This document shows positions 8,869 through 15,160 of a stretch of DNA of 45,626 nt, one piece after another. Each line of letters starts with the position of its first letter. The first letter of the stretch is position 1. The notes under the pieces were generated by a model. It was not told the DNA's origin, made no database searches, and was given only the letters and a program-made list of their open reading frames with translations. This stretch comes from an uncultured Acidimicrobiales bacterium (lineage in GTDB: Bacteria; Actinomycetota; Acidimicrobiia; Acidimicrobiales; SHLQ01), in NCBI GenBank assembly GCA_905479685.1, contig CAJQNJ010000174.1:1-45626 (forward strand). Reading direction: 5' to 3'. Both the position numbers and the translations under genes were made by a program.

Positions 8869-9719
8869 ATGGCGCAGGCAATGCCCAACCTTCGGGATCC
8901 ACAGCCGATCAGAACCCGGAGAGAACCCCTCCCATTCCCACTCAACATCTGGCAGTCAGCGGTGGGAAGAAAATGGATCATGGCCGTCACCGGACTCGGC
9001 CTTCTCGGCTTCGTCCTCGCACACATGATCGGCAATCTTCACGTCTACGAAGGGCCCGTCGAACTCCACGAATATGCAGAAGCCCTGCGGGAACTTGGCG
9101 GCCACATCATCCCTCGCACGGTCTTGTTGTGGGTGCTGCGCCTCGGTCTGATCGCAATGTTCGGCCTGCACATCGCGGCGGCGTACACCACCAAGGAAAT
9201 CAGCCGTCGCGCCAGTGACGACGCGAACTTCATCGACGGGCAGAAGAACTACCCAGGTGGACGTGACTACATCGCCGCGAGCTACGCAAGCCGGACCATG
9301 CGCTGGACCGGTCCAATCATCTTGTTGTACCTGATCTTCCACCTCGCCGATCTCACGTGGGGCCTCCTCCCGCACACCGACTACGTCCGGGGCGATCCGT
9401 TCCACAACCTGTCGACCAGCCTTTCGAACCTGCCGGTTGCGATCATCTACATCGTTGCGAACGTGGCACTCGCGGTGCACATCTTTCATGGAACGTGGTC
9501 CATGTTCCAAAGTCTGGGTCTCAACAACCCACGCTTCAATGACGCCCGAAGGATCCTCGCCGCCGGACTCGCCGGTGTCATCCTTGTAGGGAATCTGACA
9601 TTTCCGATCCTCACCCAAGTCGGTGTGATCGACCCAGACGACAACCCATGCGAGGGCTCGGGGAGCGAAGCGGCAGCGCTTGAATGCTTCGAGGCCGAGA
9701 TCGAGAAGGCAGAGGCGTA

Positions 9720-9720
<1 letters not shown>
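8869..9720 (+). CDS. sdhC: Succinate dehydrogenase cytochrome b subunit (type B)
   Basis: A 283-aa membrane anchor with about five transmembrane helices, the single fused cytochrome b of type-B succinate:quinone oxidoreductases, which replaces separate SdhC and SdhD. His residues suited to binding two hemes appear in helices: [28 protein letters not shown] and [12 protein letters not shown] 8869 has AGGAG 4-5 nt upstream; an in-frame start at 8791 lacks this. sdhA starts within its stop codon (TAATG), so translation is coupled. No sdhD follows sdhB, consistent with the type-B layout. Confidence 0.93.
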
Positions 9721-11669
<1,949 letters not shown>

Positions 11670-11685
11670 GTAGGTAGAACAAACA

Positions 11686-12465
11686 ATGAGCGAGAACACC
11701 ATCAATCTCACCCTCGAGGTGTGGCGGCAGAACGGCCCGACCGAAAAGGGGCGATTCGAGACCTACGAGGCAAAGGGCATCAGCCCGGACGCATCGTTCC
11801 TCGAGATGCTCGACGAGGTCAACGAACGGCTCATCGACGACGACAAGGTTCCTGTCACCTTCGAGAGCGACTGTCGAGAGGGCATCTGTGGCACCTGTTC
11901 GCTGATGATCAACGGGCAGGCACACGGTCCGAACAAGGGACAATCGACGTGCCAACTACATATGCGCACATTCTCCGACGGCGACCACATCACCATAGAA
12001 CCGTTCCGTGCCACGTCCTTCCCGATCATCAAGGACCTTGCGGTAAGCCGGGCAGCGATGGACACGATCCAGCAAGCGGGCGGATACATCTCGGTCACCA
12101 CCGGCAGCGCCCCCGACGCCAACATGATTCCAGTTCCCAAGCCAGCGGCCGACCTCGCAATGGATGCAGCAGCGTGTATCGGTTGCGGCGCGTGTGTTGC
12201 AGCTTGCCCGAACTCGGCTGCACAGCTCTTCACGTCGGCCAAGATCCAACAGTTCAACCTCCTTCCGCAAGGGCAACCAGAACGTTGGAAGCGCACTGAA
12301 GCAATGGTTGACACCATGGAAGATTTCTTCGGTACCTGCACGAACCACGGTGAGTGCTTCGAGGCGTGCCCCAAGGAGATCAGTCTCGACTTCATCGCGT
12401 TCATGAACCGCGACTACGTCAAGGCCAAGGTGAAGAACCGCAATCTCTCCGGCCAGAAGAGTTAG
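11686..12465 (+). CDS. sdhB: Succinate dehydrogenase iron-sulfur subunit
   Basis: A 259-aa subunit that carries electrons from SdhA to the heme/quinone subunit. The N-terminal ferredoxin domain has the [2Fe-2S] cysteines in DCREGICGTCSLM plus a later Cys in STCQLH. The C-terminal domain has CIGCGACVAACP and a second cluster motif CTNHGECFEACP, together enough for the [4Fe-4S] and [3Fe-4S] centres. It lies 16 nt after sdhA in the sdhCAB operon and is convergent with the next gene, 9 nt between stops. Confidence 0.96.
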   Translation: MSENTINLTLEVWRQNGPTEKGRFETYEAKGISPDASFLEMLDEVNERLIDDDKVPVTFESDCREGICGTCSLMINGQAHGPNKGQSTCQLHMRTFSDGDHITIEPFRATSFPIIKDLAVSRAAMDTIQQAGGYISVTTGSAPDANMIPVPKPAADLAMDAAACIGCGACVAACPNSAAQLFTSAKIQQFNLLPQGQPERWKRTEAMVDTMEDFFGTCTNHGECFEACPKEISLDFIAFMNRDYVKAKVKNRNLSGQKS

Positions 12466-12484
12466 CTGATCGTTTCAGCTGGCC
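12451..12484. terminator. Bidirectional hairpin between sdhB and the beta-propeller gene
   Basis: AGCTGA (12464-12469) and TCAGCT (12475-12480) pair around a 5-nt loop. GGCCAG (12451-12456) and CTGGCC (12479-12484) offer an alternative outer pairing. The element overlaps both stop codons and has no T tract. Confidence 0.3.
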
Positions 12485-14025
12485 GGCAGATCGACCTTGA
12501 ACATCGAGTTGCCGCCCTGGGCAAAGACAACGTCGTTGTCCGCGTAGAGCATCCACGGGAAGCCGGGGCGATTGCCCCCGCCCATGTCCTCGCGCCAACG
12601 TTCTTCGCCAGTGCGCGCGTCGATAGCTGTCACCCGCGACGAGTCGAGGTGAATCAGCTGCGAGCCATCAAGGGTGAATCGCACTGCTGCCTCATCGTCG
12701 ACTCGAAATCGGAGGGCAAGGATCTCGGTCCACTCGCCAGTGTCAATATCGATCGCCGTCACCGTGGAACCGATCAGGAGCAACATTGCTCGGCCGGTGA
12801 TCAACGGTTCGGCCCGTACCGAAAGCAAGCTGAGCACATCGATTTCATCTGGAACGGGAAGCCGAACCGGACCGTTCGAGCTCTGGGGATCCGAGACGAC
12901 CAAAGCAGACTGGCCAGCGTCATCGAAGTCCAGGAATTCCACACACGCGGACTTGTCGAGCCAGAGAGGTCTCGAGAAGTCGATCGCCACAACGGTTCCA
13001 TCCTGTGCGATCGAAGGTTGGACGAGTAGGGAGTTCGCGTCAGCAAGGTGTTGGGTCGTGAGGCCGCGATGGGCCACCCAGAACGAGGAGTCGCTTGCTC
13101 CATTCTGACTGAGAAACACCGCGCACTCGCGCAGGAGCCCGAAGCGATCGGGGTCGATCGTGTCGGCCGCATCGAGCAGCACGATGTCGCCAGACGTGCA
13201 GAAGTTCAGCGACAGACCGCCATCGGCTTGTGCGTCGGCCCAGCACACGCCGTCAAGATCCACGCCGTCAGCGACCTGCTCATCGAGAAGTTCCTCGAGG
13301 GGTATGTTCACCGGCGACGTCGGCTGCGCGAGATACACGAACGAGTTCGCACCGTGCGAAACAACCCGGGGGAAGCCGTCCACGACGTCCACCGGTTCAA
13401 ACGATGAGTCGGTGCTCCAGAGGGCCCCATCGGGTGAGGTCAGCCTCTCTATGCGAACCGCCGATGGCGAAAGATCTCCATCGGATTGGACCCAAACCGT
13501 GGTCATCAGGAGCGCGTAGCCGTCGTCCGTACGAATCAACTGCTCAAATATCCGCTCGAATTTTCCTTCTATTCGCGCCCGAGCGTTCGAATCATCAAGC
13601 ACGACGTCGACGGCCGACCAATCGACCCCATCGGCAGAACGCACAACGTTGGGAAGTTGCTGAGCGCTCTGATCCCATGACAAACCGAGGAACCCGCCCG
13701 GCGCACGAATGACGGACTGCAATTGCGAGGTGCCCGAGGTCTGTTCGAACAGATCGGCTGAGATTTCGACGTCTGCGCTCATCGCGACGGATTCTGCCAC
13801 AGTGGTCGATGGCGGTACCGCCGACGTTGTGCCTTCGGCTGCTGGTTCATCAGTTCGTAGCGCGAGCACCATCAAGAACGCGACGAGTCCCAACCCGACC
13901 GCGCCCGAGGCAATGCCAACCTTTGATCGGTTGGCCGATGTCTCCACCTCTGGAGCCTCCGCGGTCCAGCCGGACTCAGGCTCCACCTCGACCCGTACCG
14001 AACGAAGATCGGGGTCTTCCGTCAT
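12475..14025 (-). CDS. Membrane-anchored PQQ-type beta-propeller-like protein
   Basis: A 516-aa protein of no recognised family. It has a polar N-terminus (1-35), one transmembrane helix (about 36-56, VGIASGAVGLGLVAFLMVLAL), a Ser/Thr/Pro/Ala-rich linker and a long extracytoplasmic domain. C-terminal repeats of the type VTAIDIDTGEWTEIL and VTAIDARTGEERWREDMG, then DNDVVFAQGGNSMFKVDL, are typical of PQQ-like propeller blades, so a propeller is likely. Topology should be N-in, C-out. Function unknown; sensing or scaffold roles are possible. It is divergent from the selenoprotein gene, 49 nt between starts. Confidence 0.75.
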   Translation of the reverse strand: MTEDPDLRSVRVEVEPESGWTAEAPEVETSANRSKVGIASGAVGLGLVAFLMVLALRTDEPAAEGTTSAVPPSTTVAESVAMSADVEISADLFEQTSGTSQLQSVIRAPGGFLGLSWDQSAQQLPNVVRSADGVDWSAVDVVLDDSNARARIEGKFERIFEQLIRTDDGYALLMTTVWVQSDGDLSPSAVRIERLTSPDGALWSTDSSFEPVDVVDGFPRVVSHGANSFVYLAQPTSPVNIPLEELLDEQVADGVDLDGVCWADAQADGGLSLNFCTSGDIVLLDAADTIDPDRFGLLRECAVFLSQNGASDSSFWVAHRGLTTQHLADANSLLVQPSIAQDGTVVAIDFSRPLWLDKSACVEFLDFDDAGQSALVVSDPQSSNGPVRLPVPDEIDVLSLLSVRAEPLITGRAMLLLIGSTVTAIDIDTGEWTEILALRFRVDDEAAVRFTLDGSQLIHLDSSRVTAIDARTGEERWREDMGGGNRPGFPWMLYADNDVVFAQGGNSMFKVDLPAS

Positions 14026-14074: not shown

Positions 14075-14551
14075 ATGCACATTCTCGAGAACGGTACGAA
14101 ACTGCCTTCGATCATGGGCGTCGACCACGAGGGCAACGCTGGCGACATGGTCGCCCGTGCCGCTGGCTCTTGGGCCGCGGTCCTGCTCTATCGAGGTCAT
14201 TGGTGACCATATTGCCGTCAACAGTTGGTTGACTTCGCAATCCATGGCATGCCCCTGATGGAGCTCGGCATCAAGGTTGTTGCCGGTTCCGTCGACTCTG
14301 TCGAGCAGACGGCCGAGCTGCGAACCAGTTTGCGCATCGGATTTCCGATGTACGGCGAACTCGATGCTGCGACCGTTTCTGCAGACACCGGGGCGGCCTT
14401 CCAGACCGGCGACAGGACCAACCTGCATGGAACCGGCTGGTTGCTGAATCCCGATGGGGAGATCAACACGTCGGTGTATTCAACCGGCCCGATTGGTCGC
14501 TTCACGGCCAGCGACATCATCCGCAAGACACTCTTCGAACAGAAGCACTAG
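14075..14551 (+). CDS. Peroxiredoxin-like selenoprotein, in-frame UGA read as selenocysteine
   Basis: A single frame of 158 codons with one internal TGA (codon 44, 14204-14206) and a normal TAG stop at 14549-14551. Before the TGA: MHILENGTKLPS...WAAVLLYRGHW. After it: PYCRQQLVDFAIHG...NPDGEINTSVYSTGPIGRF. Together they make a complete AhpC/TSA (thioredoxin-fold) redoxin whose active site would be W-U44-P-Y-C47; relatives have Cys at this place, and UxxC Prx-like selenoproteins are known. Such enzymes use the Sec/Cys pair in thiol-dependent redox reactions, probably peroxide reduction in the cytoplasm. A hairpin with bacterial SECIS geometry begins right after the TGA. The start has a -10 box 6 nt upstream and no Shine-Dalgarno. 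A nonsense mutation or read error (TGC to TGA) is the alternative; the intact downstream frame and the hairpin argue against it. No sel genes are in the window. Confidence 0.85.
14207..14247 (+). promoter_or_regulatory. Putative bacterial SECIS element
   Basis: Directly after the TGA: CCAT, ATTGC, c, GTCAAC, loop AGTTG, GTTGAC, ttc, GCAAT, cc, ATGG. Three helices of 4, 5 and 6 bp stack with a 1x3 internal loop and a 2-nt bulge, 41 nt in all. The apical loop has G at its second position, followed by U, and begins 16 nt after the TGA. This meets the bacterial SECIS consensus (G among the first two loop bases, loop 16-37 nt from UGA) and matches the size of the E. coli fdhF element. The bulged U of fdhF is not seen on the 5' side. 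Confidence 0.75.
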
Positions 14552-14623: not shown

Positions 14624-15160
14624 ATGAGTGACATCACTGACACGCAGAACAGTTGGCTGGCCGACGATGAGATTGCCACCATGCGCGGCAAGATGCCCAT
14701 CATCTACATCAATGCGATTCCGGTGATCACCGATGACCTGGGAATCGTGACCCACATCGGCCTGCTCCTGCGTCTTGGCGCTGATGGTGATGTGAACCGG
14801 GAGATCGTATCGGGTCGAATTCTTTACGGCGAGCGGGTCCGTGATGCCCTGCTACGCCACCTCGAGAAGGACCTGGGGCCACTTGCCCTTCCTCAGATTC
14901 CGGCGTCGCCGCAGCCGTTCACCGTTGTCGAGTACTTCCCCAATCCTGATATCACCGGCTTTCACGATCCACGGCAGCACGCGGTGAGCCTCGCTTATGT
15001 CGTGCCCGTCGAGGGTGACTGCGAACCAAGCCAGGATTCACTGGACCTCGTATGGCTGCGTCCAGACGAGGTCACGAGTCCAACCGTGGCCGCAGAGTTG
15101 TCACCCGGTCACGAAAAACTGGTCCGACGCGCACTGGCCTACGTCGGCCGCCTGCCTTAA
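14624..15160 (+). CDS. DUF4916 family protein (NUDIX-like)
   Basis: A 178-aa protein matching the actinobacterial DUF4916 family: NSWLADDEIATMRGKMPIIY at the N-terminus, SGRILYGERVRDALLRHLEKDLG, LPQIPASPQPFTVVEYFP, and FHDPRQHAVSLAYVVPV with LVWLRPDEV near the end. The fold is related to NUDIX hydrolases, but the canonical GX5EX7REUXEEXGU box is not visible, so pyrophosphatase activity is doubtful. The biological role is unknown. ATG 14624 has GAGGAG 8 nt upstream. A 39-bp direct repeat with internal hairpins follows its stop. Confidence 0.85.
   Translation: MSDITDTQNSWLADDEIATMRGKMPIIYINAIPVITDDLGIVTHIGLLLRLGADGDVNREIVSGRILYGERVRDALLRHLEKDLGPLALPQIPASPQPFTVVEYFPNPDITGFHDPRQHAVSLAYVVPVEGDCEPSQDSLDLVWLRPDEVTSPTVAAELSPGHEKLVRRALAYVGRLP

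Follow-up and report, generated by a model that had tools for sequence, protein, structure and literature searches.

The closest described counterparts of the gene studied here are Prx-like selenoproteins that carry UXXC instead of TXXU. As far as the available text of PMC1088965 goes, this family, remotely homologous to Prx and with a thioredoxin-like active site, comprised 22 Sargasso Sea sequences, with a bacterial SECIS in the coding region behind the UGA and a small apical loop containing a G. The available portions of two further papers count 8 Prx-like UXXC selenoproteins (PMC1794560) and 32 in 28 organisms (PMC5029168), and an excerpt of PMC13188914 lists a "Prx-like thiol:disulfide oxidoreductase" under PF00578 in Table 1, with WP_010940744.1 as the representative. 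A preliminary description of the present locus, which had called Prx-like UxxC selenoproteins a known type, is borne out by these four sources to the extent of the excerpts. It had also called them rarely annotated in Acidimicrobiia, which fits our limited search of the open-licence literature; within it, no report of the gene in the Acidimicrobiia/Acidimicrobiales lineage was found.

We analyzed a 45,626-nucleotide stretch of DNA (the window) from an uncultured Acidimicrobiales bacterium (assembly GCA_905479685.1, contig CAJQNJ010000174.1). One of its genes agrees with the family as outlined in those excerpts: (i) its in-frame UGA aligns with Cys in homologues, (ii) its active site reads UXXC and not the TXXU of Prx, (iii) the protein is homologous to AhpC/TSA (PF00578) by fold search and by a Pfam match of the joined protein (42.4 bits; cut-off, 26) that covers residues 8 to 103 across the TGA, and (iv) the putative SECIS follows straight after the UGA, with an AGUUG loop at +17 to +21. 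Particular to the present case are close members that, among those studied, lie in one order (Acidimicrobiales) and an apical hairpin whose sequence is nearly unchanged throughout that order. Placed by the published family description, as far as the excerpts give it, the window gene most likely belongs to the Prx-like UXXC selenoproteins. With a probability of roughly 0.9, we read it as encoding a 158-residue Prx-like selenoprotein with SECIS-directed Sec that would serve as a UxxC thiol-disulfide or hydroperoxide reductase.

An in-frame UGA codon shared by close relatives

Translation confirms the frame proposed in the preliminary description, which runs from ATG 14075 to TAG 14551 and has the TGA at codon 44 as its sole internal stop (Table 1). 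The coding character claimed for the part past the TGA is likewise upheld: GC3 is 0.72 upstream and 0.73 downstream, the two parts of the frame have similar GC contents by codon position, and the Pfam match spans the TGA. The start at ATG 14075 is backed by three relatives (L022, L023, and L026) in which the frame is closed 3 codons before the equivalent Met; in a further one (L027), it is closed 3 codons before a Met lying two residues further on.

Table 1. Features of the probable selenoprotein gene and its surroundings in the window
Feature	Coordinates	Strand	Description
Probable selenoprotein gene	14075..14551	+	158 residues + stop; AhpC/TSA (PF00578) fold; in-frame UGA at codon 44
UGA codon (predicted Sec44)	14204..14206	+	TGA in 23/23 close loci; TGC/TGT in distant relatives
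C47 codon	14213..14215	+	Second residue of UxxC; unchanged in the 25 rows of alignment A2
Synonymously constrained codons +4 to +10 (seven codons)	14216..14236	+	23 loci
Candidate bacterial SECIS apical hairpin	14217..14233	+	GUCAAC / loop AGUUG / GUUGAC; 6 bp
3' ORF (108 aa, TTG start)	14225..14551	+	Open reading frame list
Neighbor, DUF4916/NUDIX protein	14624..15160	+	Pfam match, locus comparison
Divergent neighbor, 516-aa protein	12475..14025	-	Weak PQQ_2/BamB match below cut-off
Neighbors, succinate dehydrogenase/fumarate reductase flavoprotein and iron-sulfur subunits	9684..12465	+	Pfam, locus comparison

The separate 3' piece from TTG 14225 that had been foreseen is indeed present as an open reading frame. 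Its TTG sits within the loop of the hairpin (14223-14227), and the frame is an artefact of UGA taken as a stop, which a standard caller might report. A caller of this kind would split the gene, and no NCBIfam model comes near naming the window protein. Termination and Sec insertion compete at UGA, and the UGA could accordingly be pictured as a selenium-dependent switch in which termination is regulated and Sec is inserted only under ample selenium, the fragment from TTG 14225 perhaps being made separately. Apart from this competition, the 108-aa ORF itself speaks for such a switch, but conservation extends to both halves of the protein, which are modelled as one domain, and a TTG inside the hairpin loop has no other support as a start; we regard the switch as improbable.

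Relatives were sought in 197 genomes, own included, and matches were obtained in 67. The close relatives form 23 loci (L020-L042), one each in 23 of the 197 genomes (own included), and represent 7 families, with 8 genera, within one order. TGA occupies the identical codon in 23/23, with WUPYC in 22 and WUSFC in one, and this conservation is far beyond chance. The other 21 Sec rows of alignment A2 show 38 to 79% identity to the window protein. An actinobacterial order known mostly from metagenome-assembled genomes (MAGs) in the collections examined would thereby keep a Sec-containing redox enzyme. A second, partial copy of the gene, 51 codons long and also with the TGA, exists in a congener (G004, contig 2, 13606-13758).

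The preliminary description had named Cys at position 44 of homologues as a check, and Cys was found there: it occupies the site in L043-L046, the next four matches after the G004 partial copy, and more distant relatives have TGC or TGT. The expected W-C-P-Y-C active site of relatives also appeared, as WCPYC or WCPFC, in Cys homologues from Mycobacterium, Streptomyces, Bradyrhizobium, Salinispora, and Ktedonobacter, which share about 33 to 45% identity with the window protein over most of its length. A broader scan of contigs, from which the best 80 of 453 relatives were taken, returned close relatives named Acidimicrobiales, Acidimicrobiaceae, or Acidimicrobiia and the Cys form in the five genera just listed. 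Among these best 80 of 453, the Sec form was found outside the order in MAGs of Tectomicrobia, Nitrospinae/Nitrospinota, Gemmatimonadetes, Verrucomicrobiota, Desulfobacteraceae, other Thermodesulfobacteriota, and Syntrophaceae. In an even draw of the phylum (own genome included; at most 9 candidates scored per genome), matches at E <= 1e-15 were obtained in at least 10 of 396 genomes. When the site was read in relatives, none was obtained for L127 and L142, and false sites were obtained for L111, L118, and L122. A Syntrophaceae Sec form (L117) has an in-frame TAG a few codons past the hairpin, where its neighbor L114 has a sense codon; L117 may be a damaged copy or reflect a sequencing read error.

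These comparisons bear on the simplest alternative, namely, that the codon was originally TGC or TGT and that the TGA is a point change in a pseudogene or a sequencing error. The source assembly is fragmented and 85.3% complete, and Cys relatives do exist, but the same TGA in 23/23 close loci of 23 genomes contradicts this explanation because independent identical errors would be needed in many genomes. The frames are, moreover, open on both sides of the TGA, and there is synonymous constraint past it, so that we consider a pseudogene or an error very improbable. A genome-wide reassignment of UGA, e.g., to Trp or Gly, would also yield a sensible protein by read-through, as is seen here. It deserves even less credence: 6 of 11 window ORFs examined stop at TGA, relatives have Cys rather than Trp or Gly at the site, and tRNA-Sec, selA, and selB are present.

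The distribution of the two forms was followed on a tree of 99 rows (52 Sec and 47 Cys), from which L111, L118, L122, L127, L142, L047-L049, L044, L117, L134, and identical or too-short rows were left out. The Sec/Cys label changes 4 times, compared with a mean of 33.3 for shuffled labels. The 34 Acidimicrobiia Sec rows lie on one side of a branch with support of 100/97. Two Gemmatimonadota Sec rows cluster with two Cys rows from Ktedonobacteria (100/93). A deep branch, comprising 6 rows, unites 5 Sec members with one Cys member. One large Sec clade contains 45 rows, the support for the whole clade being moderate (91/56). From the 4 label changes and the mixed Sec/Cys groups on the tree, it would follow that Sec was probably gained or lost more than once. 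The Sec members of the deep branch (L137, L139-L141, and L143) are Prx-like proteins with W-U-P-[YF]-C-N-G-Q-L and TGA at the site, from other families of the phylum; the Cys member, L138, is nested among these TGA rows.

RNA-level constraint and the Sec-decoding machinery

The hairpin begins ten bases past the TGA. Where two of the 23 loci encode the same residue, their codons agree in 96% of pairs at +4 to +10 and in 52 to 63% at +1 to +3, versus 49% in the remainder of a 72-codon block that surrounds the UGA (without codons 0 to +10). In the window, the seven codons are CGT CAA CAG TTG GTT GAC TTC, of which TTG (14% of its residue), GTT (21%), CGT (18%), and CAA (28%) are minor codons in seven window genes.

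Judged from the aligned sequences, the stem covaries over 50 distinct Sec segments. In these segments, 91.3% of 300 cells are paired (shuffles, 80.8), 31 cells are changed on both sides (shuffles, 7.1), and the covariation score is 0.354 (shuffles, 0.153); each of these values was reached by 0 of 500 shuffles. Two counts on the same 50 segments stand out less, as the 4 pairs with a change on both sides were reached by 127 of 500 shuffles and the 9 further pair types by 38 of 500. When the stem was slid along the alignment, only 5 to 46% of cells were paired. Because the shuffles keep relatedness, the covariation is weighed jointly with the codon result. The underlying alignment (A3) has one row per identical segment, leaves out L047-L049, keeps L117, and includes the deeper branch (L137, L139, L140, L141, and L143), whose fit to the stem is poorer. 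The 23 close loci alone vary very little in the stem and contain one cell changed on both sides, in L038, which 19 of 500 shuffles reach. Conservation of a lower stem beneath the hairpin was not seen in these 23 loci (73.9% of cells paired), and extra upstream pairs around the UGA that RNAalifold proposed for alignment A1 were dropped, since their columns are mostly hardly variable.

At the corresponding positions, five or 6 stem pairs are found in 30 of 37 distinct Sec segments and in 0 of 46 distinct Cys segments (36-base segments); the Cys segments have a maximum of 4/6 pairs, reached in 4 of the 46, and as Cys peptides differ here, this control is partly confounded. It left out L111, L118, L122, L127, L142, L047-L049, L134, N-bearing or too-short rows, and identical segments. 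Taken alone, the window is weak evidence for the hairpin: each of 20,000 synonymous recodings keeps at least 4 of the 6 pairs, and 3.75% of them form all 6. Compared with shuffles, a 47-nt fold of the window is more stable (z, -2.57), and a 73-nt fold is not (z, -0.37); the folds of L038, L039, and L040 gave z values of -0.28, -0.36, and -0.66, and the minimum-energy fold of L038 differs from the hairpin. Rfam, SECIS families included, has 0 matches in the window at the gathering score.

A check for the sel genes in the source genome had been proposed, and it turned out positive for selA, selB, and tRNA-Sec and negative for selD in the 85.3%-complete assembly. The tRNA-Sec scores 65.1 bits, over the Rfam cut-off, and was found by ARAGORN too, with the anticodon tca. 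selA (381.7 bits) lies immediately before selB (280.5 bits) on one contig, and Pfam SelA and SelB winged-helix domains are matched in their products. For selD, the own assembly gave two matches of 36 and 26 bits (cut-off, 125), and a search of it with a congener SelD gave only weak matches, without improvement. Among the congeners G001-G010, selD is above the cut-off in 10/10 and selA in 9/10. Given the incompleteness of the assembly and the presence of selD in congeners, the simplest reading is that selD lies in the unassembled part of the genome. Over all genomes searched, selA is above the cut-off in 21 of 23 Sec-form genomes and 96 of 174 others (Fisher p 0.0006, relatedness uncorrected), and selD is above it in 21 of 23 and 100 of 174 (Fisher p 0.0012, relatedness uncorrected); every Sec-form genome (23/23) has a selA match or selD over the cut-off. 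In two congeners, G010 (L150) and G003 (L151), SelD forms the C-terminal half of a longer frame (about 735 residues), the SelD part having no internal stop and the N-terminal half resembling, by eye, an FAD-dependent pyridine nucleotide oxidoreductase; similarly long frames exist in four other congeners.

SECIS recruits SelB and Sec-tRNA(Sec), which SelA makes from Ser-tRNA(Sec) and selenophosphate, and Sec replaces termination. At the present locus, the ribosome would meet the UGA at codon 44, the hairpin at 14217-14233 would act as the SECIS and recruit SelB with the Sec-tRNA(Sec) that SelA would form from these two substrates, and Sec would be inserted at codon 44 instead of termination. 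The UGA is most likely read as Sec because relatives keep both the codon and the RNA hairpin behind it, and on this comparative evidence, insertion at codon 44 is almost certain. The recoding reading of the preliminary description is strongly supported by the TGA in 23/23 loci, the Sec/Cys exchange, the RNA-level constraint, and the presence of selA, selB, and tRNA-Sec.

Fold, active site, and probable chemistry

The AlphaFold model of the whole chain, built from a 25-row alignment with the window protein first and Sec modelled as Cys, has a pLDDT of 96.0 and a pTM of 0.91. The 50 Foldseek matches listed are all peroxiredoxins or AhpC/BCP-type proteins, and the best PDB matches include 3hjp Bcp4 (TM, 0.86). 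The protein is thus predicted to share the fold of classical peroxiredoxins (AhpC, BCP/PrxQ, Prx6, and the Sec form PrxU), and it scores above the cut-off of Pfam AhpC-TSA. Unlike them, it has no PxxxTxxC/U motif; its motif is R40-x-x-x-U44-x-x-C47, with R40 and U44 at the Pro and Thr positions. In alignments to classical peroxiredoxins, U44 coincides with the Thr of TxxC, while the peroxidatic Cys corresponds to C47. NCBIfam models, which include PrxU, Uxx_star, and SelL_rel_redox, do not name the protein: the top score is 23.9 bits (AhpC; cut-off, 272), PrxU gives 18.8 bits (cut-off, 270), and 0 of 12 listed families reach their cut-off.

ResA/TlpA-type oxidoreductases provide the other comparison, as the W-C-P-H-C of ResA aligns with W-U-P-Y-C of the window protein. 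However, the alignment of the C-terminal half extends further with Prx than with ResA, visual inspection shows no signal peptide, and the Pro-Thr pair of ResA aligns, by eye, to Ala/Gly-Thr. Invariant in the 25 rows of alignment A2 are R40, G41, W43, residue 44, C47, and R142. The peroxiredoxin-like UxxS family cd02970, listed in the excerpt of PMC13188914, was ruled out, as the window protein has UxxC and C47 is invariant in A2.

In the alignment with archaeal Prx, R142 falls on an Arg. R126 of ApPrx, which we take to be the catalytic Prx Arg, aligns by eye to His118 of the window protein. Position 118 was counted over distinct rows, with the deep branch L137-L143 left out. It is His in 45 of 48 Sec rows (44 by pattern and L082 by eye) and Gln in two Gemmatimonadota Sec rows (L076 and L084), L117 being not readable; the 47 Cys rows have Gln (44) or Glu (3). 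Since the Gemmatimonadota Sec rows have Gln, His118 marks the main Sec clade and not Sec itself. The Cys homologues differ from the window protein in having Cys for Sec, no more than 4 of the 6 stem pairs, and Gln/Glu instead of His118. Together with the near-invariant SECIS, the Sec/Cys contrast and the His versus Gln/Glu difference lend themselves to comparisons of what Sec contributes to a UxxC enzyme.

The protein could still be a selenoprotein and yet a true peroxiredoxin, reducing peroxide at C47 with Sec44 in a resolving or activating role. Its Prx fold, the position of C47 on the peroxidatic Cys, and that of R142 on the Arg of archaeal Prx agree with this. Nevertheless, U44 replaces the Thr of TxxC, His118 stands where ApPrx has R126, and the order UxxC/WCxxC is the one seen in ResA and other thiol oxidoreductases, which makes a true peroxiredoxin rather unlikely. 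A UxxC thiol oxidoreductase is the more probable assignment from the residues at the active site, because Sec stands where classical peroxiredoxins have Thr; such an enzyme, able to reduce disulfides or hydroperoxides, is also what the name of the described family suggests. Of the "peroxidase or oxidoreductase" suggested earlier, the second half is therefore favored, and the first is less secure with U44 on Thr and C47 on the peroxidatic Cys. As an oxidoreductase of the UxxC type, the W-U44-P-Y-C47 product would act as a thiol-disulfide or hydroperoxide reductase: the Sec44 selenolate would attack a disulfide or peroxide, C47 would resolve the selenenyl intermediate by forming an Se-S bond within the molecule, and the enzyme would be regenerated by a thioredoxin-type reductant.

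Only tentatively do we suggest that this actinobacterial order may have kept, over a long time, a distinct type of Sec enzyme, with a near-frozen hairpin that would dictate the peptide RQQLVDF behind the active site, an active site retuned for selenium, and a chemistry that is neither classical Prx nor classical Trx. The suggestion draws on His118 (aligned with a Prx Arg) in the main Sec clade versus Gln/Glu in Cys forms and on the replacement of the Prx Thr and Arg.

Neighboring genes and a second probable selenoprotein

The DUF4916/NUDIX gene lies immediately 3' of the selenoprotein gene also in L020, L024/L056, and L025/L057, and within the wider region in L027 and L058. The succinate dehydrogenase/fumarate reductase genes are upstream in four congeners as well (L055, L056, L057, and L058). 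Any window neighbor was matched in 12 of 43 loci (window locus included, some genomes counted twice); because these 12 all belong to the own genome or to congeners, synteny was not used as functional evidence. Relatives of the 516-aa neighbor, at 22 to 26% identity, flank the selenoprotein gene on both sides in L021 and L026/L058, which suggests that it is a member of a small local family (two congeners).

A covariance model of the hairpin region (R1) was run on the own genome, where it matches the window by construction, as the window is in its training set. Its next best match, on contig 11 (19.9 bits, E 0.003), led to another probable selenoprotein of this organism (L155; contig 11, 12000-15000). 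In L155, a TGA at about 12693 is preceded by 62 and followed by 348 open codons, and the resulting frame of about 410 residues is Prx-like, with W-U-P-W-C in ...HRSADW-U-PWCRAQLVEL.... The minimum-energy structure of its 50-nt fold is not a simple hairpin. Four weaker R1 matches (L146-L149) gave no convincing read-through protein by eye. On visual inspection, L155 is similar to two frames with a TGA in relatives, L047 and L049. Such Prx-like frames of about 400 residues (L047, L049, and similar ones) are found with W-U-P-P-C or W-U-P-Y-C in several genomes of the order, and those of the L047/L049 type carry a long C-terminal extension.
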